From assembly GCF_037975245.1 (NCBI RefSeq), contig NC_092579.1, positions 15,896,178 to 15,960,177 of the forward strand: a stretch of 64,000 bases of DNA, written 5' to 3'. This document shows, piece after piece, positions 1,930-61,878 of this stretch. The notes below the pieces were generated by a model that saw only the letters and a list, made by a program, of their open reading frames with translations, searched no databases and was not told the origin of the DNA. Source of the stretch: Apostichopus japonicus (Eukaryota; Echinodermata; Holothuroidea; Aspidochirotida; Stichopodidae). The stretch's first letter is position 1. Each line of letters begins with the position of its first letter. The position numbers and the translations under genes were made by a program.

Positions 1930-3606
1930 AGCACTTTACATTTAAAAAGAATACCTCAAAGCACTTTACATGGAACTAGAGCAAAAGGTACAAATAAAAG
2001 ATGCATAATAAAAAAAAATCAATTATTTGATTAAAAAACAATATAACTAATGGTACTGTATGTTACATATATGCTACGGTACATATTGTTTTATCATTCT
2101 CTGCCTTAAGCTTGATAGTTGTAAACATGTATCATTTACGTTCATGAAATTGGTAAATTATACGTTACTTGAAAGATAATATTGCATTGTACAGTATTTC
2201 TTGGAACCCACATTTTGGTCATCTTTTCTGTTCTCTGTATATATACAGTACTATTGTAGCCCACAGTCAACAATATTGTCCTTAATTCTGCCTGTTGCCA
2301 TGGCACCTGTGGAAGACATCAATCTCCTTGTCAGTGTTTGCACCAATATTTCACCTGTCACTACATTATTGATTATTGCGCACTGGAAAACCTGAAAATC
2401 ATATTTAGTCAGAATACTGTTAAGCTCTCACGTTTGAAAATGCACATGAATAATCTTACAGTAGGTCTGTTCTTGAAGCATCTCAGTTGAGGATAACTCC
2501 TGTACCGTAGTGAAGTTCTCCAAAACATTAGTGTTCAGTACTGCAAGGCAGCATTCAATTACAGCTCTTTGATAAATGTTTGGATGCTATACTCTTGACT
2601 ACACATCTGATTGAACAGTAGCTGTCGTATGTGTAGTTTGGCTAGTCACAGTACTGTAAGCTGCAATAATTAATAAGTTTATGTCAAACAACTTTCCATT
2701 TACCGTAGCTTCCCACGTCTGTGGTTTATAACTTCAGTACTAAGTTTATGAAAAAAGTGTCTGGGCGACAAAATGTTGATGGTCAAATTGAATTCATTGG
2801 ATAACTGATGGATTGTCTTTCTTTTTGTGGCAGAAATCAAGGATTACTCATAGTTTGTTCAATTAGAATGTTTAACTTTATAGTTTGGTGGTAAAAAATC
2901 TCTACCTCAAACAAAACTTACTACATTAATATTCATACTGTACATGAACATAACATCTTGATCCTAGTCTGGTTCAGCCAGTGTATTGTACTCTACAGAG
3001 TAAAAGTGTTTACTGCAATGTTATGGTAAACTCTGTGTTAAACAACTGAAGGCACCGGTCAGTTATCTCCCCCCCCCCCACCTCCACATCTCATTTTCGT
3101 TAAAGGCTTGATTCCAGATAGTTTGAGGGGCAAAATATTGATTGATCCTTGGCATTAGTCCATGAATTTTCTAAATTAAGCAGTTGTGGCCTAATGGCAG
3201 TACAGTGTTACAGAACAGACACTTTGGTCAAGTGTTTATTAACTTACGATGCACTGCGCAAGTATATACTGTACAGTAAGCAATGCAGGGAATATGAGTG
3301 AAAGTATAAACATTGAGATTCTGCAGGAAATTGTCAATTGATTCAAACTTATGTAAGCTAGAAAATAATTTGTAATATCCATGTTTATTAGTAACTGTAG
3401 AGTACCATACCTGTGTTAAATAGAACAGAACATGCTAGTAGCTACATGCAGTACTGTATGTACTGTAATGTACTGTAGTAATTATAAAATGCTGTAAATA
3501 TGTTCTTTATAAGGCAATAGATATACCGTACTGTAATATAGCCCTAATCAGCCCCTGCTGTAATGTATGCAGTATATTTTGTAATGTATATTCATGACTA
3601 ATATAT

Positions 3607-3632
3607 GGGCCATTCCACACTAATGGGGTACT
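3607..3632 (+). repeat. Left terminal inverted repeat of the 5.9 kb transposon
   Basis: This is an exact 26-base inverted match to 9481-9506. The next bases inward (3633 on) show only weak similarity to the complement of the sequence before 9481, so the TIR is short. The flank to the left is AATATAT. Confidence 0.85.
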
Positions 3633-3949
3633 TATGTATGTTACTGCAAAGCCTTGTTGGAAATCGGTCTACAAAGCTTCCTGGCAGTAACAAACTGCAT
3701 GGTTTAAAGTATTTGATGCCATACTTTAATATTGCAAAATAGTGTTAACAGTTGAAAGTCTTTATGTCAATTCATTGGTAATTATTTAAAAAAAACTCTT
3801 TGCATGTCTCACCAATTTGTGCAAGGAATATGTGACAGAGCATTAATGGAGATTTTTAATCCACTTGTTTTATGTTTTAGTTACAAAAATGACCAATGTA
3901 ATGTATCATAATGATTAAAGAATTCAATCATCTGAATGCTGTTGTTGTC

Positions 3950-5300
3950 TTCTTTCTTGTCCAACACGTGAAAATTGAGAAAATGACCACACAAAAATAT
4001 ATAAACGTTCGTAATTGACATCTGTCCTAACAGTTACGAGCGTAACTTGCCCCATGAGTAAAGTAATCTGAAAACATTTGGCGGAGATAAAATGTTGTGC
4101 CTTGTTACAACATCGTATCTCAGTAATGAACATGGTTTTGAGGGAGTTGAGTCTTCCAATCCCCCGGAAAACGACGGCCAAATTAGCTTTAAAAAAATCT
4201 GTCCAAGAGAGCTTACGTTCGAACGTACTTTTAAATCACTTTTCACGGAAATCGCGCATTCGATCCTGTGAGTGTTTAGTATGATAAACATCCTTGGGCG
4301 CATGCGTATTTCAGAGAAAACAACAACCCTGGTCACCCACCGACTTTTAAAACCATGGAGGGAAGTTTGTGATCTGTCTTCTGAATCTCGGTAAGTTACG
4401 AGCGCAAGTCAAATTACGAGCGTTCGAAATCACTACCAATTTTACCGAAAATAAAGCACTTTGCAATGTGATCAAGGTATGGTTCAATTTAGAGACTTCT
4501 CACTCAGTAAGTGAAAGTTCTTACACCGCTAGGTGAGCGGACTCGTAGATGCAGTTGCCGCCTTTGGTATAATTGCACTGAGTGAGACAGAAAACACTAC
4601 TAATGCACGTAACTGCAGACAGATTGAGTCAATCTGTCTGAAGTTACGAACGTTGGCAAAAGACCTCCATTATTCATTTAGTTCGATGTAAAGGTGCATG
4701 ATAATACCATGAAACTTGCTAAATGTTTACTGGGCACGAATGTTCATCTCGCATTGGCATTGAAGTGCAATTCAATAGCAGTTTCATTAAAATGAACTAG
4801 CCTAGGCCTACGTTCAAACGTAATTGTTGGTAGACAGATTTCAGATTCGGTCACTCGTGTGAACGTTAGCATGATTTCGGTATTTTGATGTATAATCTAA
4901 TGTCGACGTACCGATGTAAATGAACTGAGTGCATACGATGATTCCGTAAATATAACGTTAACAATATTTCATTAAGCAAAGGTTAGGTTAGACCTGCATG
5001 CTAGGCTTCAATTGAAAAAGCTCACGTTCGAATCTAAGTGTGGTGAGACATATTTGCCCAGTCGGTCTGTTTTACGAACGTTAGTATCTTCCCTGGTTGA
5101 GTACTAACTTAGGCCTACTAGCCTAACGTTAAGGGTAGCGTTATATTTTCGTGCAGATCTAGCCTAGGTTTTAAACAAATGCAGTACAGACAATTGACGA
5201 TGCTTCATGTTTTATTACGTATTTTAATTTGCAACTAGGCCGACACGTAGGCGAAGCCTAACACTGGGTTTTCTCATTACTGATGCATATAATGTGTAGG
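3950..5300. promoter_or_regulatory. CpG-retaining island with repeated TTACGARCG motif and a splice donor
   Basis: CpG is clearly denser here than in the surrounding 16 kb. The word TTACGAGCG or TTACGAACG occurs near 4033, 4395, 4413, 4645 and 5072, and inverted forms (ACGTTCGAA, ACGTTCAAACG) near 4215, 4810 and 5024. The site at about 4215-4230 forms a self-complementary TACGTTCGAACGTA. A good donor, CTCG|GTAAGT, lies at about 4388. The block sits inside the transposon ends, so it could be the element's own promoter plus subterminal transposase-binding sites. Alternatively it could be a captured host promoter for a 5' noncoding exon. The sequence alone does not decide. Confidence 0.45.
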
Positions 5301-6029
5301 CTAGGCCTGCCTAGGTCTAATTTAAAAAAAATATATATATTTTTGTTTATTCAACTCTCATTTTTATTACAAACAAAAAACAACAATCAACATGTATCGT
5401 CTTGCTTTCTAATTAAAACTTACCATTGAGTTTGATCCGCGAGGACTGAAAATGGGCATGTTCATCGTAATTGCTTTAATGAGAAGAACCATCTATGGCC
5501 TAAAGAACCCACAGTGTATTTATTGTTCTCAGGGACAGGCTGGCCTTATTTGGGAGTTAGCCACCAAATGTCAGTATCTTGGGACCTCTGATTAAAAATT
5601 CTGGTGGTAGATTCTTTATCTCCAAACAGCCTAATTCCATACACAACATTCTTCCATATAAGGCAGCTTACAATATAATATATGCATGAGGTGCATCTGT
5701 CTTTACACGTAATTACCTACAGGCTGCTTTTAATTATCATGTAAGCTCTAACTGTTATCAAACACAAATAACATCATTGGCAAATTCCAGTGGATGACAA
5801 ATCTCTTTAATTTAAAAGCTTATGGAGGCAACAATTTCACCATTGAAATTGACACTCCTGTATTGAAGGTTTGAAACTTTCTTCTACCATACCATGGATT
5901 ACAACTTTCTCCTGTATTTTGAAACAAACCAAGTTTTGTCTTTTCCTTAACTTCCATATTAAAATGGAAAATGTTACCTTATTTGCTCCAGGATATAATG
6001 TTTTACAAATTATTCTCTTTTCAGGTAAT

Positions 6030-7892
6030 ATGAGCCTGAAAATTCGCCTTCGTTCCTTAAACAGGAAGGTACCTCAACTAGAGGATATTGAAGGACAACG
6101 AACAACTGGTTTTAGCAATGCAGCAATGTATATGCGCAGGTATCGAGGCCGCATAAAAGCTGATCAGGAATGTTATGTTCAGTATCAAGCTAAAGAGACT
6201 GAGCGAGTGAAAGAATATCGTCAAACCATGTCTCAGGAAGCGAGGATATCATACATGAACATATGCAGTTACCCACTGCTGTAAACTGGCCTGCACACAT
6301 CTGAAGGTGGAGAGGAAAGTGGAGTTTAACAGACTGATCCAGTTCACTGATGGGTGTGGCGCACAATACAAATCTCGCACAGGATTTGCTGACATCTCAT
6401 TTGGAAACATAGATTTTGGCGTGCAAGTTGAGCGGCATTTCTTTGGCTCATGCCATGGAAAAAATCCATGTGATGGAGAGGGTGGGGGTGGTTAAAAATG
6501 CAGTCACAAGGTCAGTGAAGTCTGATGTCAACATCACCATTGATGGACCCTGGGAGTTCTATGACTTCTGCTCCAAAAATCTTGCTAAGGCACCAATGAA
6601 ACCAGATGGATCGTGCAACCACTCTCGTCGTACTTTTAACTTAGTGAAGGAAGGTGATATACAGAGGGAAAGGCCAACCAGAACAAATGTTGACATTGTG
6701 GCTGGAACGCGAAAGTTGCATGCTGTAGCTGGGATCTCTCCATACTAATTGCACAAAAGGCGTCTTTCATGCTTCTGTTCACCCTGTCAGGATCTGAACT
6801 CAGTAGCACCGTGCATCAATCTGGAGTTTGTGAAGTCTTGGAGTGAATGCAAGATGTCTGCTAAAGGGATTTCATTTGAAGCAACTACTAGCAGTGATAT
6901 GGAAGCTGCAGATGTAGGTCATGCTGAGATGAATGAGATTCCGGTCTGTACACTTGAGAGTGCAACTGATAATGCAACTGGAGCAACTGTGGGTAAATCA
7001 TCATCTGAAAGATCTGAGACAGGGGACTTATCTGAAGTGGGTATGCAGGTGGCATACTAACTTCCAACAAAGTGGGTCAGTCCCTTTTTACTTAAATTTT
7101 AAGTGCTAAGCAACATGACATTGAAAGAGATTTCCTTCTATTTGCAGAATCAAAAACAAAATGCATCAACAGAAGTGTTATGTTTGATGTTGCATATTCC
7201 AGTGTTTCTTTTCATGGGAAATGTCACTCAACTTTATTAAGGGCCTTGATTTCATTAATTAGATTGAAACTCCTTATCAGTGAACTCTAATCAAACGTGA
7301 GGGTGGGGTGAGTCGTCAACTTTCAGTTCACTTCTTCGTGAAAAATGCTGGAATAGTTGTTATGGATTGCCCATACCATTTGGTTGGTCATTGCAGTCAT
7401 CAAGATTGAAGACAGCCAGTGAATATTTCCTATTTAATTTTTTTTTTGCTCTTTTCATAAATTACAGATTATGATGAATCTGAAGTTGTCCAGACACAGT
7501 TGGATGTGTTGAATGAAAAGGTCTTAAAAGATCTCTTCTGTGATGTCTGCCTACCAGAGAACAAGCATGAGGCATTACTAAAACTACAGCAAAGAGGGAT
7601 TGAAATTCGCCTTGAAGAGTATTATGCTGTCTTCTATGACAACGAATTCTATATTGGACGATTGCTTGAGAAAGATGGGGAGGAATATCTGTTTAAGTTT
7701 CTCCATAGAGTTTGCAGTGCATCTAAGATGTATGATTAGCCTATAAGGTCAGATTCTGAGAAGGTTTTAGGCAAATTCGTTATCGATGGACCCCTTACAT
7801 TGGTGGGCAGTGGACCATTTTCTGTGCAAGAAATTGAAAATGTGGAGAAAACATATGCTGAAATGAAAGCAATAACACAAGCTGAGCTGTAA
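6030..7892 (+). pseudogene. Decayed transposase-like gene inside the 5.9 kb element
   Basis: An acceptor (TTCTCTTTTCAG, ending 6024) precedes ATG 6030, which opens a basic N-terminal segment (MRRYRGRIKADQE) typical of repetitive invertebrate ORFs. It stops at 6284. In a second frame from 6259 follows VEFNRLIQFTDGCGAQYKSR, then ERHFFGSCHGKNPCDGEGG at about 6435-6490, both recalling RNase-H-like DDE blocks. A G-run near 6480-6495 then shifts the frame; the text continues as VVKNAVTRSVKSD, is cut by TAA at 6746, and continues as RRLSCFCSPCQD. A phase-matched intron runs from GT 7041 to AG 7467, joining SEV-D-YDESEVV. The last exon holds EEYYAVFYDNEFYIGRLL, a TAG at 7737 where the family would carry Trp, then PIRSDSEKVLG and a final stop at 7890-7892. 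Much of the catalytic middle, including the expected first Asp block, seems deleted near 6260-6300. Superfamily not assigned. Confidence 0.72.
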
Positions 7893-8943
7893 AGTGGTAA
7901 AGCATAAATAATGCATATTTTGTATATATTTCAAAGTTTTAACAAGTACACTCTGGCTTTCCATCTAGCTAATTGTACTGTGAACAGTTTCAGTTGACTG
8001 CATCTATTCTGCAGGAATCTTAGATGTTTTAGGTTCTTGCTTGATTGCTTGTCTTCAATATACTGCATGCTTGACTATATGGGAAAGAGCAAGAAAAAAA
8101 CAGTCAGATATGCTTGTGATAGTGTGTGCTTCCTTTTTAGCATTTTTTTCTGAAAACATCTTCAAATTTATGTTTATTCAATTCCATGACATGTGAGGCT
8201 ATCCCACTTCATCTGATACATTTTCAGAAAGTTTGAAAAGTGAACATTTAATCATTAGCCAGTTTGATAAAAAAGTAAAAGCAATTTATGGGTTTTCGTC
8301 TGTCCATGTTTCAAACATGATATAAGTGTATATATTGGTACATTTTAGTGTTGCATTGGTGCTAATATTGTTGGTATCTAATACCCTCTTGTAATTTGAT
8401 ATCTTTCCAATGGTATGCAAGTTTACAATTATGAATTCAACTATTTACTCTTTTAAAATTTCTGACATACTGTATTCAAGTCTACAGTTTAACAATCCTT
8501 CCATTATATGAAATTTTAGGATTTTCACTATTCATATGCAATTTTGAAATTATTGAATTTTATAAATATTCAATTGTTAACTATTCAATTTTCAGTTCAA
8601 CAATGCATTCAATGACCTACACTAGAGGTGTCAGTATTAGTAGTATCTTTTTAACTTTGCTAGATATATGCAATTAATCACATGCAAGCCTACAACTATT
8701 CATTCAACTATTTAATTTTTCTTTAATTAAAGTCTGACATTTACAATCTTAAACAGACCACTCTGGATAAGTTGTTGTTTCCCACATGATATGATGTATC
8801 ATCACAATTTCATGATAATTCCAAAGTACAGCAGCAAAGAAACAGCTACAAATGAGTGCCCAAATGTACATTCAATTGAAAATAATCATTTGTAATCCAT
8901 AGAATTTCTGATGACAAATTAATGTGGAGATTGAAAAATATTC

Positions 8944-9318
8944 TGTCCTTGTTACGTACGTAAGACCCTGAACATGGTAACCATACATCCTACCTTTATG
9001 CAAGTCCATATCATTTTCTGCACTATAGCTTCTAGCAGTGGTTTTCATTAAGATGTGAGATATATTGTAACAAATACTCAGGGAAAAAAGGTACTTGTGG
9101 CACTAAAATTTGTTCTGTGCATAGGGAATGTTGAAATGCCCTCTCGTTGTATTATCAAAGATTCATGTTTTTTCCAGTTTTTCACCCTTGGATCCATTTT
9201 GTCTTTGTTAATTGTTATAATTACAAAGTTTGCAATAAACAAAAACTGTTAAAACTCATGTACAATTGTTGTTTGTGGCCTGTTTATGATCAGATATCTG
9301 TCCTTGTTACGTACGTAA
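8944..9318 (+). repeat. Perfect 20-bp direct repeat pair in the right subterminal region
   Basis: TGTCCTTGTTACGTACGTAA occurs at 8944-8963 and again at 9299-9318. Its core GTTACGTACGTAAC-like palindrome resembles the GTTACGAACGTT words of the element's left arm. The spacing is 355 bp. The position just inside the right TIR fits a protein-binding site, though that is inference. Confidence 0.6.
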
Positions 9319-9480
9319 TACACGCCATATATTATACTTTGCTTGGCTGTCATTGCCAACCTTATCCAAAACTTATCTCATTTAGGGTATATACAGTTGC
9401 TATACACTCTAGGTCATTACTCAAACCAAGTTTCATGCTTTCCCTATGACTTTTAATTTTCACCCACTATGTCACAAATT

Positions 9481-9506
9481 AGTACCCCATTAGTGTGGAA
9501 TGGCCC
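9481..9506 (-). repeat. Right terminal inverted repeat of the 5.9 kb transposon
   Basis: This is the exact reverse complement of 3607-3632. The right flank reads AGATATATATC, so any target duplication is hidden by AT repeats on both sides. Confidence 0.85.
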
Positions 9507-11130
9507 AGATATATATCACCAGTATACAAAGAACAGTTACACACAGTTGGCCTAGTTCCACGGTACAAGCTCTATTGAGTTCCCATACTGTACATGTTAT
9601 AACACAGAGACAGCTATATCCTGTGGAGGGAGATATTATGATCTGATGAACTTCACTTCACCTGTACCAACCATTACTGTAGGTCAGTGTTGTTGGTTCA
9701 GTGATGAAACGCTGATATAATTGAAAGGCAGTAAGAAACCCTACTGACCTGTAATGGTAATGCATAGGAGTTACTGTAATAAAGCATCCCTCCTTATCAA
9801 TAGAGGCCAGTGGTGTAATATTGTGAGTTAATCTTGGTGAGACTTAAACAGGCTATTTACATACTGATATTGTTTGTTTGTGCAGGTGTTTAATCAACCG
9901 TAATCCTATAAAGCAGTTTCTTATTATTTTTTTACATGAATTCTTTTTTCGTAACTTTTTGACACCATTTTGTGAAATAATTTCATAGACTTACAGTCAA
10001 GTGATCATTTACACATTTAATGCAGTCAACAATGCTTGCATTATAAATCAACTTGCAAATCACTGTACAATTCAATATTAACTGCAGTGACATGCACATG
10101 TTTTACAAAGTGGGCCAGGGGTAGGGAGGAGGAGAGAGGGTGGGGTAGTGTGAGAACAATTTGTAAATCTGTCCTATATGCGTCCTATATTTTACCATGT
10201 GTGTATTAAAGTTGTCACAGAGATACTGTGTACTACATAATGCATGTACTGCACATGTCCCTTACTGACTTGCCCCTTTCAAACTTCCTTTCGTTCCTCA
10301 TCCAACTCTGATTGGAAGTGTCTACCAAGATGCAAGCTGACATGCTCTTAACATACTTGATTCCTATTTAGCCTGTTTGCATATTAGAGTGTTCTATTAG
10401 TGTGTACTGCACAGTATACACAGTAAGCTCTAAAGAGCTTGCATGCAGCTGTATTTATAATTGTCTGCTGATTGAATTTATGGTGGTGCATTTGGAGCCA
10501 TTTGATGCCTTACTGTACAGTTCATAGTCTTTCATCTCTCTCGAGACTCTAACTCACTCTATCTGAACGAACACTGCGGTTCAGGCTGACAACATCTGAC
10601 TTCCAGTTAACAAGCTGAACTTCACCATGTGGGCGTTGTATAATTGGCATTTCTTTCTTTCAGTGAAAGAAGAGGGTTAACTTGAGAAGGAAGAACTACA
10701 CTGGAACTACATATTAATGTAATGGTAATAATGTACTGTATGACCATATCAAGTACTTGCCAGGGATAATAATATACCCTTGATTGCTTACTGTAATCAG
10801 GGTTAGAGTAGCAGCTCCCTGCTGTAATATCAGGCCCTATATACACCCTCATAGTTTTACCACATACTGCACTGCACTGAAAAGTTCAAGATGACCAAAT
10901 GGAATTATTTGGCATGCAGCCAACTATTCCTTTTGGGAAAGTGGGAAGTTAGGTCTATGTTCAGCACTGTACATGTATGTTGCATGGTTTAGTTTACACA
11001 TACAGCACTACAGTACAGTAGTTAACTGTAGAAAAACGATAAGTACAAAAGTAGAGAAACTTACCATTAAAAGCCCAAAAGGCTAAATTGATGTAACAAT
11101 ATTAACTAAGAGATCATTAATACAGCTTTA

Positions 11131-12667: not shown

Positions 12668-12829
12668 TAGATCACCGTGCATTGCCTACTCTTCATCTAA
12701 CATCATCTGTGAAGGGGTTGCCATCCATTACTGCGTCCTAGCAGGCTGTTTCGTCAAGGAGCCAGCCTACCGTTTCCATGCCTAAGATAAGCTCTGTGTT
12801 TGGATCTTACTGCTCAGCCAAGCACAACC
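12668..12829 (+). other. EEF2K: 5' UTR part of the first visible eEF2K exon
   Basis: A pyrimidine-rich acceptor (TTTTCTTTTATCTTTCCAG, ending 12667) opens this exon, which continues without interruption into the ATG at 12830. An upstream noncoding exon is therefore expected but was not identified. In-frame codons upstream of the ATG are open for about 10 codons only. Confidence 0.7.
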
Positions 12830-15800
12830 ATGGCCCAGGTCGACATCCGGATTCAAGACGTCCGCAAGAGTGAGACTGAGACCGAAGACGATGACGACAT
12901 CATCATGGAACCGTTGTTCGACGACGTCCCGGACGTACAAAAGCTGAATCTGAATGAAGCCTTTGAGAACATCAAGAAGAGCAAGACGCCTCCGACCAAG
13001 AAGAAGTGGAAGAAGGCGGTCAAGAAGTCCCAGAAGGTAGCTGACCCTTGGGCCATCTATCACTTTGACAGCGTTCCTGTCGAGATGTGCACTAGACACC
13101 GATATAATGCTGTCACTGAAAAATGGACCACCGATAAAGTGAAGGTGAAATTGGCAACAGAGGTAAGATTTATTCTCACTAACACAAGCTCCTAGAAAGC
13201 TAAAAAAGCTATAAGGTACTGTACATGTATGGAAATCTTCGTATTTGTTCATTTCGGGGAATCATGCCGCAATGCATTGTAATTTTTTTTAATGTAATTT
13301 TCTAACTTAAGTTTGATGTGAAAACTATGAATAAATTATCTTTCTTGTTCTGTTTAATGTATGATGGCAGCAGATAGAAGATTAAGAACAGTTGGTTCTG
13401 TTTTTGCTCACTTTCTTCATTCTTTGACCTCCTCCTTTTCATGCTAGTATCAAAAAATAAAAAAATAAATAAAACACTGAACATGGTTTTCAAACATCTG
13501 TATCCCTGTTTGGCTTTCACTGCCCAACCAATACCTTAAATTGTAAAGGCACTGTGTCAAAAACGAAAAGCTGCAGCAGGCTGAATCAATATCATACAAT
13601 GGAACTTATCTCATACTATGCAGACCCAGCAGTGCCAATTGCAGGGAAACTGCAGCACATTTTACAAAGTCCTACTGTACAGTATGCAACAGCCATGCTG
13701 CAGTATTCTGCAAACCCCCTCAACACCCTACTCTTCACACTGCATTACCAAATATCAGTTGCATTCTTGATCAAGATTGCCAGGACAGAGAAGGAATGTC
13801 TGAGATTCCCCAGAGGACTGAACAGTAGAATATAAGCAAACTGACTGACAGATACAAACATGTAGACACAGTACTGTATGTATTGAACTGTATGTACAGT
13901 ACTGATTACTGTACTGTACAGTACTGTATGTAGTATTTACTTCACTCCTCTCTTACCTGTCTCCTACAACACTAACGCACATTTCCTAGTCTACCTAGAT
14001 GTCACTGGATATGTAGTATGTCATGGATTATGTCATGGACATATGTAGTATATGGACATATGTAGTATGGACATATGGACATATATATGTAGTATGGACA
14101 TGGACATATGTAGTATGTCATGGATCTCAATGTCATGGACATATGTAGTATGGAATTACGTAGTATGGACATATGTAGTATGGACATATGTAGTATGGAC
14201 ATATGTAGTATGGACATATGTAGTATGGACATATGTAGTATGGACATGGACATATGTAGTATGTCATGGGTTTCAATCAAAGTAGTTACAGCAATATACA
14301 CACATTTGATCTGACATGAAGAAACTGGTTAATATTGTGAAATGCCATTCAAGATAACTAAAGAATGGAAACAATTTTTCCTTGTTGAAGTAGTACATGT
14401 ACAGTACCCTTTTGTACAGTACATTACTGAGTTATATTTATGACAGGATTAACTCATGCAACCATAAACATCTATAGATTCTAAATCATAACAGAGGTCA
14501 GTCAGTAGTACAAAAAAATGTACTGTACCATCTTGAAGGGTAATAAAATATCATCCAGGTACCCTGTGAATGCTAGTTTTCTCAGATCAGTGTCACCTCA
14601 ATATTTTTCGTACGGTAAAACATTACCAGAATGAATCTGAGCATGATGCTATATAGATTGGTAATTTTATTGCTACAGTATCAAGCAAGTATACAAAGAC
14701 TGATGATACTGCACATAGACATGTATGTACAGTATTCATTCATACCACAAGAAAGCAAGCTTCTCAGCATATAAACTAGAAGCTAATTCATAATGTATTG
14801 GAATACTAAATAACATAAAATCCAACACAAATGCTGTAACATTGTTGTTGTTCAGTATTAAATTGACACAGTCATATTTCATGGTTATTGTACTGTTACG
14901 TACTCTAGTAGCTATCTAATGTATAAATACATGTAATAGAAGTTTCTCTGTTTAACAGATTCTCTACGAACAAGATGTATGTGTATTGTTTAACAGTGTG
15001 ATTTATTTCTCCCAAAAGTAATACATTAACTACAGTAAAAGTGAAACTGACTGCACTCTGTTAATACAGACAGGACTTTATTTGAATTGTTCACCCAATA
15101 AAGAATATTCAGGATTGATAAATTGTAAGTAAGCTGTTCTATATCAAACTGCAATGTAGATGTCTTAAAGGGGCATCCATGGCTCGATTGCGATAATATG
15201 CAAGATTGTCTTTTCATGCTTTATATTCATAAATTTTGAGGTGTTTTGTGTATATATAACAATGTTGGTAGCTTTTTTACTTTTTTAGCTGAATGTAAAA
15301 TTTGTTCAGGTAAATTGCAACCCATGGCTTCATTATTTTGCCAGTTACATTTATGTTATTCTTGAAATTAATAATTTAATGGTATTACCGTGGCTTAATA
15401 GGGAAAATTAAAAAAATAAGTGTCCCCAAATCTCAGAATACTGACTTTCTATCTCAAAATTTGACTTTTAATGTCAAAATTTTGCCATTTTTTTTTTTTT
15501 ACCCCATCAGTCCAAAGTTTGCCTTGTTATCTCAAAGTTTTGACTTTTTATGTCAAATTTTCCCCCTGTGAGTCCCTATTAAGCCACTTATGGTATACAT
15601 GTATGACAGTATGTTTTTATTCTATTCCTTTTCTACAGCCATTTGCCAATGGAGCTATGCGTGAATGTTACCGCATGTGAGTAATACAGTATATGTTGGT
15701 GGTGTGATGTATCATAGACAATCAAACTGTGATTAATGAATTGTGCCTAAGATCTACAAATTCATAATATTGTCATCCCTTCCTCACTTACCTGTCTCCT

Positions 15801-47740: not shown

Positions 47741-49057
47741 TTAAACAACATCATGTTCTGCTACCAGCGAGCTGTAAGAGGGAGGTGGTTCTTCAGTCCC
47801 TACCAAGTCCGATACTGTATTTACTACCGCCACAGAATCGTAAGATGGTGGCAGATCCCGACTCTCCTCATCCGTCTGGTATATCTCGTTCCTCACCAGA
47901 GGTGACCTCGGCGATGACGTTGGCGCTCTGCTGCTTCTCGTTCTGGTCTGGGAGCTTCCCCTCGGATCCCGGTTGGTCGCGGAGCGCTGTCTATCACCTT
48001 CCTCTGCCAAACGATTAACCTGCATCTGAAGGCCACAAAGTACTACCCCTATCAATGTGACAGAGAGAGTCACTCCCAACGGGATGATGGCAAAATATAA
48101 GCAATACTTCCAAAGGGATGCAACACAAGTACCTTGAAGTTTTGCATATGTGTCTGTATCTTCAGACAACTCAACCATTACAGATTCTGCTTCTTCCAAA
48201 TTCAAGGAACATTTGCCTGTGGCATTACAAGAATCAGTCGGTTGCTCTTCGTTCCAATGGTAATCATAGCGGTTTAGTACAGAGGTCACATTGAGATTTT
48301 CCAGACTGTCAGGGAGTTCTCGATATGGGTCGTTCATTAACACGAAAAACAAATCTCCATAGTAGCCACTGTCCGAAGAATACCTGCGAGAGTCTGGGGA
48401 ACTTCCGTCTTGGTTACACTTACGGAAGACAAAACTGTCCGAATAACGTCCGCAACATTTATGGGACTCCCAGTAACCAATTGATGAGGTGCTTCTGACT
48501 GTGTACAAATATATGGCTCTTTCCGGTGCGCAGGCCCACAACGTCACCGAGGCAGAGTCGCCTAGATAATGATACATGATGAACACGTCATCCGCAGGCA
48601 GTGACAAGCTTGGATTCGTCTGGTGGTATTCGCTGGGGTTTCTGTTCTCGTGAGGGGTTTCGGGGAATACATATGCCTTGAATAAAGCGGCGCCACCCAC
48701 TACCTGCAACTGGTAAGCTGAGCAGAGACCTGGCGACAGGTTGAAACTGTCATCACCCCGGTTTATCAATCTCTGGTCTTTATCTCCCAGGTAAAACTCT
48801 GTTTCAGAGTAAATGGAAAAACGGAACAGCAGAGCCAATGCTATATCAAACAATGCTAAGTAAAAGAAGACTAGCATTCCCTTCTGCCATTTTGGTCTTC
48901 TTTTGCCAGATGAATAGCAGCGCTGGCAACATGTTGGACATTTAGTGCAGTCGACAATCTCATCCAGTGGTACATTCCATTCATACCCACTCCAATTTGA
49001 CCTTTCGCCAGAGTTAGATCTGCTGAGGTTGCTGGTGGAGTTTCCAAAAGTGGACAT
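47741..49057 (-). CDS. Two-pass membrane protein with PPxY tail, single exon, 438 aa
   Basis: An uninterrupted 438-codon frame from ATG 49057 (context AAAATGT) to TAA 47741. The N-terminus is Ser/Asn-rich, then a Cys cluster (CTKCPTCCQRC, 37-47) and a basic stop (GKRRPKWQK) precede membrane segment 1 (about 60-80). A region of about 235 residues follows with paired cysteines (CSAY, WACAPER, KCCGRY, RKCNQ) and N-glycosylation motifs NVTS (256) and NATG (278). Segment 2 lies at about 315-343. The tail is Arg/Ser-rich and ends with two PPxY motifs (LPPSYD, about 402-407; PPPSYS, about 424-429). Positive-inside logic puts both ends in the cytosol. PPxY motifs bind WW domains, so partnership with NEDD4-type ligases is inference. 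The order recalls two-pass APD-like proteins, without a RING; I do not recognise the family with confidence. Confidence 0.85.
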   Translation of the reverse strand: MSTFGNSTSNLSRSNSGERSNWSGYEWNVPLDEIVDCTKCPTCCQRCYSSGKRRPKWQKGMLVFFYLALFDIALALLFRFSIYSETEFYLGDKDQRLINRGDDSFNLSPGLCSAYQLQVVGGAALFKAYVFPETPHENRNPSEYHQTNPSLSLPADDVFIMYHYLGDSASVTLWACAPERAIYLYTVRSTSSIGYWESHKCCGRYSDSFVFRKCNQDGSSPDSRRYSSDSGYYGDLFFVLMNDPYRELPDSLENLNVTSVLNRYDYHWNEEQPTDSCNATGKCSLNLEEAESVMVELSEDTDTYAKLQGTCVASLWKYCLYFAIIPLGVTLSVTLIGVVLCGLQMQVNRLAEEGDRQRSATNRDPRGSSQTRTRSSRAPTSSPRSPLVRNEIYQTDEESRDLPPSYDSVAVVNTVSDLVGTEEPPPSYSSLVAEHDVV

Positions 49058-49844
49058 TTTAGGAGTGTTGTCGTATGCAAATTATTCAGACAAATTTCCC
49101 ATATATATCTGGTCACATGGCACTACTGGAAGACATCTTTATATAGGTTACCTGAAACAAATTGAAAATAGGGCGATTCTTTACAAAAAAAAAAAATAAC
49201 TTTAATATTAAATATCATACAACCATATGGCAGATTTGTCCTGGGGTAGAGCCCATTGTTGTATCACTAGACACTGCTGATGGTGGTGACAGCCAAGAGG
49301 ATGCATGGTTATTGTACTTTTGGTGTTTCCATCTCATGCCCCCAAAATCCTATCAACTTCTCTTGAAGGGAAGTGTCAGTGTTTTCTTTCACTAAATTGG
49401 TGTTTTCTTTCACTTTCAAACTGTAAGACCAGGGGACCATGGTCACAAAATTGTAGCCTAATATACACAAATATTGTATGATAATATCTATAATCTAGAT
49501 ATTAACAAACTCAGATTTGCTCCCAATCCTATACCAAACTTATTTGAAGGTTAAATGTCTGGTTGGTACAATACCTACAAAAATTCACACTATTCCGATC
49601 TACAGACCCATACATACAATAACAATTATTATACAACACCTAATTGTATTCTGGTCATTTGATTGGTCAATTGCTCGTTGATTGCATGCAAAATCCGCTC
49701 TATTCCACTCTATGAAATAGAACCATGGGTTATACTTTTTTGGTAGCACTTTTTTCAATGGTAAGAGAGCAGAGAAACCTGTCTGTTCAAAACAATTTGT
49801 TGCATGAGTGCATTTTACCCATCTAATATAATATGTTGTATAAA
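49058..49844. other. Upstream region of the PPxY membrane protein gene
   Basis: AT-rich sequence with no exon recognised. An octamer ATGCAAAT sits at 49075-49082, within about 20 bp of the start codon and so more likely in the 5' leader than in a promoter. A poly-A run lies near 49185. Confidence 0.4.
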
Positions 49845-61273: not shown

Positions 61274-61878
61274 TCAGATATTACTCACCCTTGATCTTTT
61301 ACTAAAACATACAAGACATAGCGTCAGTAGGGCTAACAAAAAAGAAGTGGTCGCGAAAATCGTCGACAATCCGAAAAGTAAAATTCTCAACTTCACTACG
61401 TCATAGACGAGACAGTTACCGGTTATACCGCACGAAGTTTGAAATAGCAGACAACTTTTATCAAATAGGATCCCGTAGATTACAGGGCCCGGTGCAGTTA
61501 CTAGGAGAAAAAAAGGAGAAGCAGAATAAACAATTATTAACAAAAAATATGAAATTTGTAAACTATTTTTGGTTCCATGGCTCGTAAAACTGTTAGATTC
61601 GTCGTTTTCTCAAGCACTCGGCGGATATCCAGTTTTACAAGAGACGATGAAGAGGACCCCAAAAAGGTCAGGTGGGAGGGTTGAGAAAATAGGATTTCGT
61701 CCTCCCACCCCCATCACCCTGCCCAAAGGAAAACACGTTCAAAGGTTAACAGCATATCTGAGACCACATGGTTAGAAGAGGTTGACCCTTTTTTAATGTT
61801 TCAAACAACTTACCTAAAAATCGCTTAACAAATTTATCGAAACCTTGAATCATTGCGCGGTCTCTTTCTTCAACGTAT
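61274..61878 (-). CDS. SLCO/OATP organic anion transporter, 3'-terminal exons (partial)
   Basis: Two minus-strand exons, 61878-61814 (65 bp) and 61500-61274, read in phase. The 65-bp exon gives YVEERDRAMIQGFDKFVKRFL, matching the conserved stretch before the last helices in SLCO genes, which commonly have a 65-bp exon at this place. The next exon reads VTAPGPVIYGILFDKSC, then FQTSCGITGNCLVYD (paired cysteines of the last extracellular loop) and the final hydrophobic segment ILLFGLSTIFATTSFLL. SLCO proteins are twelve-helix carriers of organic anions at the plasma membrane. The frame ends SKRSRVSNI-stop at 61274, but a donor AGG|GTGAGT at 61288 offers an alternative splice to a later exon. Upstream exons were not recognised before the window's end. 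Confidence 0.85.

Follow-up and report, generated by a model that had tools for sequence, protein, structure and literature searches.

Terminal repeats and relic gene at positions 3607 to 9506

In the Apostichopus japonicus genome, a 64,000-nt stretch of contig NC_092579.1 (positions 15,896,178 to 15,960,177, hereafter the window) contains a 5.9-kb element at window positions 3607 to 9506 that carries the broken remains of a putative transposase gene. The element is delimited by exact 26-bp terminal inverted repeats (TIRs) of the sequence GGGCCATTCCACACTAATGGGGTACT, located at 3607..3632 on the plus strand and at 9481..9506 on the minus strand, with 0 mismatches between the two ends. These repeats enclose the relic gene, as an earlier note made from the letters of the window had described. 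Directly outside lie a left target-site duplication (TSD), ATAT at 3603..3606, and its right counterpart, AGAT at 9507..9510, which differ by 1 mismatch. With up to 3 mismatches allowed, the TIR matched the 64-kb window twice, versus 0 matches in 100 shuffles. We then searched the whole genome (671.6 Mb, 35 contigs), for which the counts given here for TIRs and for protein matches are lower bounds. The search returned 29 exact TIR matches and at least 32 with up to 3 mismatches, which formed 16 pairs and left no orphans. The three inexact TIRs carried one mismatch each and were the 5′ ends of copies L021, L022, and L023, while the reversed TIR, used as a control, had no match in the whole genome. 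The shuffles, the reversed control, and the genome-wide pairing rule out a chance repeat, and further copies with paired ends, for which the earlier note had proposed to search, do exist.

Exon 1 of the relic extends from an ATG at 6030 to position 7040 (6030..7040, plus strand, like all parts of the gene and the subterminal motifs below). It is interrupted by frameshifts and stops and lacks the first of three predicted catalytic aspartates (D). The second and third are retained within two blocks that the earlier note had picked out, FTDGCGAQYKSR (6343..6378, D codon at 6349) and HGKNPCDGEGG (6457..6489, D codon at 6472), both of which lie in the frame opened at 6259. A phase-1 GT-AG intron was placed at 7041..7467 by reference to relatives, followed by the relic of exon 2 (7468..7892), which would encode a C-terminal domain and contains an in-frame stop at 7737-7739. 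The intron proposed by the earlier note is likely: a phase-1 GT-AG junction before the second exon was seen in all three families read by eye from genomic sequence, namely the window copy's own family (W) and two related families of the same genome (B and C). In family C, the first acceptor AG is off phase, and the next one (CAACAAG/GT) fits. A possible sign of a leader exon farther upstream is a pyrimidine-rich stretch at 6013-6032, which ends in AG immediately ahead of the ATG (6030).

The subterminal regions, which the earlier note had called motif rich, lived up to this description on the 5′ side. Between 4005 and 5087 (4005..5087), repeated TTACGAACGT-like motifs form a candidate transposase-binding or promoter region. 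Counting TTACGAACGT with up to 2 mismatches, and scoring near-palindromic sites on both strands in the real sequence and the shuffles alike, we found 13 matches at 3607-5200 (mean of 1.85 and maximum of 6 in 300 shuffles). The 3′ side was only weakly enriched, with 4 matches at 7901-9506 (shuffle mean, 0.63; maximum, 4) and two sites of the TTACGTACGT motif at 8952..9318. For comparison, 38 matches to TTACGAACGT were counted across 9507-64000, a span of 54.5 kb.

Copies, insertion sites, and a shared internal deletion

To compare insertion sites, all 16 copies were oriented alike. Perfect 4-bp TSDs flanked 13 of them, with the sequences ATAT (seven copies) and AAAT, AATT, TAAT, AACT, ATGT, and AAAA (one copy each). 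The remaining three had duplications one base off: ATAT/AGAT in the window copy and ATGT/ATAT in both L013 and L023. Aligning the copies, as the earlier note had proposed, thus gave a TSD length of 4 bp. When the 150-bp flanks of the 16 copies were compared with each other, no match was obtained at an E value of 1e-5. Since the flanks are unrelated, the copies represent separate, independent insertions, and segmental duplication is ruled out as their origin.

One 1,564-bp deletion with an identical junction was common to 15 of the 16 copies, including the window copy, where the junction lies at 6238..6242 (plus strand) and shows, by eye, a 3-bp microhomology (AGC). In all 15 deleted copies, it shifted the reading frame and removed the first catalytic D codon. 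Deleted copies measured 5,565 to 5,948 bp, and the sole undeleted copy, L013, measured 7,500 bp. L013 has kept the missing DNA, but it carries one in-frame premature stop and 90 private substitutions; its exon 1 is open at element positions 2279-5083 except for this stop, at 3602-3604. An additional one-base frame break follows the CDGEGG block in the deleted copies. It was recognized in 13 of 15 by the layout pattern (in L011 with an adjacent base change), and in the two copies that this pattern missed, L009 and L019, it was visible in the translation. An autonomous element is ruled out, given that the first catalytic D is gone in 15 of 16 copies and that L013 has its premature stop. The earlier note was right that the 5.9-kb TIR transposon is a real element, but it had missed both its derivation, by internal deletion, from a 7.5-kb form and the imperfection of its ATAT/AGAT duplication.

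Because the deletion took out part of the transposase gene, the window copy would have been moved by an enzyme from elsewhere. The common junction together with the unrelated flanks likewise suggests that the deleted form itself moved, in 15 separate insertions. Identity between copies was 95.8 to 100% (blastn), with substitution distances of 0.0002 to 0.030. L010 (C6:15635700-15641634) and L015 (C15:2400091-2406025), both 5,935 bp long, were one substitution apart, and L009 (contig C2) and L019 (C20) were four apart. Such near-identical copies on different contigs suggest very recent movement, even though the 16 copies hold no intact gene. In an unrooted tree, L013 joined beside L011 and L014 (support, 97), a position compatible with a single deletion followed by spread, the order of events itself lying beyond an unrooted tree. 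Candidates for the mobilizer of the family are a lost or unassembled sister copy and a related family. The family is thus a clean and recent example of a deletion derivative that outnumbers its source (15 of 16 copies), the sole undeleted copy being itself broken.

Related families and the predicted catalytic core

Searching the genome at the protein level yielded at least 53 matches, made up of 33 from the 16 copies and 20 divergent ones, two of which are adjacent. Open frames of 737 to 930 amino acids (aa) were present in 9 of the 20. The divergent loci used were L054/L058, L055/L059, L056/L060, L057/L061, L062, L063, L064, and L065/L066, all in extended form, and L050 and L052 as matched, without extension. 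Three related families, A, B, and C, were distinguished from W. Over the aligned parts, identity to family C was 36% for B, 34% for A, and 39% for W (the latter over the second part of exon 1 only); exon 2 of B and W was 50 to 54% identical to that of C. In L065/L066, a C-terminal domain comparable by eye was found in one continuous frame. At L052 (1025-1944 and 2131-3404), a broken transposase relative lies directly beside what looks, by eye, like a reverse-transcriptase-like frame.

Family B (2 copies) starts with GGGTGTTTATTTTTTTATGGGTACC and, read inward from its right end, with GGGTGTTTTTTTTTTTATGGGTACC; by eye, ACAT/ACAT flanks the ends of one copy and TAAT/TAAT those of the second. The single copy of family C, 7,510 bp long, is bounded by GGCTCATTCCGTGAACTTGGGT ends, paired at 20 of 25 positions, with ATAT on both sides. 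By eye, W and C look alike in that both start with GG..CATTCC and have TGGG further inward. As judged from the genomic sequence, the open reading frame (ORF) family is located inside GG-starting, 4-bp-duplicated ends in three families, W, B, and C. The earlier note's central idea, that the ORF family can be tied to defined transposon ends, is therefore upheld by 16 TIR pairs and by three end-bounded families, in none of which it lies outside such ends.

In an alignment of eight sequences, D179, D263, and D304 were invariant (8/8), and E306 was kept in 7/8. Together with a structure model, this predicts a D-D-D triad within an integrase-like RNase H core. Known DDE cores are compact. Retroviral integrase folds led the list when structures were searched with the predicted core, which indicates a shared fold only. 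Thus, the RNase H-like character stated in the earlier note is predicted from relatives, but it is unreadable from the window copy because the first catalytic residue is missing there. The relatives share a distinctive cysteine cluster before the core, and exon 2 possibly forms a small SH3/Tudor-like barrel, as modeled for one relative. A profile hidden Markov model search for a known superfamily, suggested by the earlier note, gave no Pfam match above the cut-off and a few below it. Nor did the ORF family match NCBIfam, and there was no significant match among PDB sequences or among viral contigs, genome contigs, and plasmid sequences. By linking an ORF family unmatched in Pfam to defined ends and a target duplication, and by giving it a gene structure and a predicted core, the analysis allows ORFs of this kind to be annotated as transposases.

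Probable placement near Sola2 and comparison with other superfamilies

Sola, first reported in 2009, comprises elements with a DDD transposase, 4-bp TSDs, lengths of mostly 2 to 9 kb, and TIRs of 11 to 1124 bp (PMC10741241). The window family agrees in its 4-bp duplications (13/16 perfect, 3/16 with one mismatch), in its TIR and element lengths, and in the three aspartates, invariant in 8/8 aligned sequences within a low-confidence predicted core. Sola2 is described as duplicating AWWT, with short TIRs and a transposase of 888 aa (PMC3627910), and derivatives such as DFa-1 and DFa-3 have lost most of the transposase region (PMC3627910, PMC10741241). In common with Sola2 are the 4-bp AT-rich duplications (including ATAT and AAAT), short TIRs, multikilobase size, a DDD transposase of ∼900 aa, and the deletion of most of the transposase region in derivatives. 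The C-terminal barrel exon and phase-1 intron of our relatives differ in that they are not mentioned for Sola2 in the available text of either paper. From this comparison by published description, not by transposase sequence, the element is probably a Sola member, most likely close to Sola2. Transposase homology is the defining feature; on the features compared here, which fit, we file it as probably Sola2-like and not as a demonstrated new superfamily. The earlier note's suggestion of a transposon type not formally described is not supported in this form.

That the element spread by a cut-and-paste DNA transposon mechanism is very likely, and we are only slightly less confident in reading 3607-9506 as a non-autonomous copy of such a transposon, shortened by an internal deletion. 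The undeleted form would have measured ∼7.5 kb. Going by L013 and the relatives, it would have encoded in two exons a transposase of ∼900 to 1000 aa, consisting of a basic N-terminal region, the cysteine cluster, the DDD RNase H-like core, and the exon 2 C-terminal barrel. Supplied in trans, such an enzyme would bind at the termini, possibly also at the subterminal repeats, and the element would be excised and reinserted with a 4-bp stagger, matching the duplication observed, mostly at AT-rich sites. The single internal deletion, with microhomology observed at its junction, may have arisen by aborted gap repair.

Several points weigh against this interpretation. An intact transposase is absent from all 16 copies. 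The core model, built from 5 sequences, has a mean predicted local distance difference test score of only 57.5 and a predicted template modeling score of 0.53, and D263 and D304 are in weak model blocks (45 and 60). E191 and D234 are also invariant in the 8-sequence alignment, and for this reason the choice of triad leans on the model. AWWT is a preference and not a strict rule, as it fits 9 of the 13 perfect duplications (the seven ATAT, AAAT, and AATT) while TAAT, AACT, ATGT, and AAAA deviate. The ATAT duplication of family C sits within an AT repeat, and in family A (2 copies) both copies have indistinct ends in TA-rich DNA, with no exon 2 match.

Alternatively, the element could belong to a separate, undescribed DDD superfamily that resembles Sola2 in its 4-bp AT-rich duplications by convergence. 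We regard this as unlikely, albeit worth serious consideration. It would account for the lack of above-cut-off Pfam, NCBIfam, or significant PDB sequence matches and for the distinctive cysteine cluster and C-terminal barrel exon of the relatives. Yet the element agrees with published Sola and Sola2 features in TSD length and composition, in the DDD triad, in size, and in the length of its TIRs, and because Sola is included in Repbase (PMC4455052), absence from Pfam is uninformative on Repbase. A comparably tentative proposal is that of a distinct DDD superfamily or deep branch beside Sola2, characterized by GG ends, 4-bp AT-rich TSDs, the cysteine cluster, and a separate Tudor/SH3-like C-terminal exon that could steer integration via chromatin, with a very recently moved derivative lacking an intact source of its own family in the assembly. 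If true, movement without an intact source in its own family would imply cross-mobilization by a related family.

It is very improbable that the ORF is a passenger gene in a transposon of another kind. In favor of this, defective copies moved without the ORF product, so that its action in cis is unneeded, and the family scans covered part of the element's other frames, which reach 143 aa at most. However, the same protein occurs in the GG-ended, 4-bp-duplicated families W, B, and C, at identities to C of 36% for B and 39% for W, and its predicted core is DDE-integrase-like. A Kolobok-related element has an equally slight chance. Kolobok shares 4-bp duplications and 5′-RR..YY-3′ ends, and duplications are 3 to 5 bp in the KolobokP lineage (PMC9587614), but the typical target is TTAA, found in 0/13 perfect duplications here, even if KolobokP is less strict. 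KolobokP moreover has long terminal direct repeats, whereas the longest pair of direct repeats found between 3000 and 10100 lies internally and has a length of 39 nt, and a C/DxxH motif before H298 was absent, by eye, from the 8 aligned sequences.

The Sola2-like assignment was also compared with other systems. piggyBac shares the 4-bp duplication, but its 5′-CC..GG-3′ ends (PMC10045372) and TTAA target (PMC9587614) exclude it, as ends here are GG..CC and TTAA is found in 0/13. Ginger1, whose transposase is Gypsy-integrase-like, has 4-bp TSDs as well (PMC10045372); here, there was no Pfam integrase match, and the likeness to retroviral integrases is one of fold only. In retroviral integrase and mariner-type DDE cores, the third residue is E instead of D. 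PDB sequence similarity to these cores was absent, and the proteins described here differ further in their large N-terminal portion and in having a C-terminal exon.

Elsewhere in the window, a 446-aa open frame at 47741-49081 (minus strand) had no Pfam match at an E value of 0.01, and neither did an ORF at 12791-13195 (plus strand), which we take to resemble eukaryotic elongation factor 2 kinase. A fragment at 61274-61606 (minus strand) matched the OATP organic anion transporter family (Pfam PF03137; E value, 1.4e-09).
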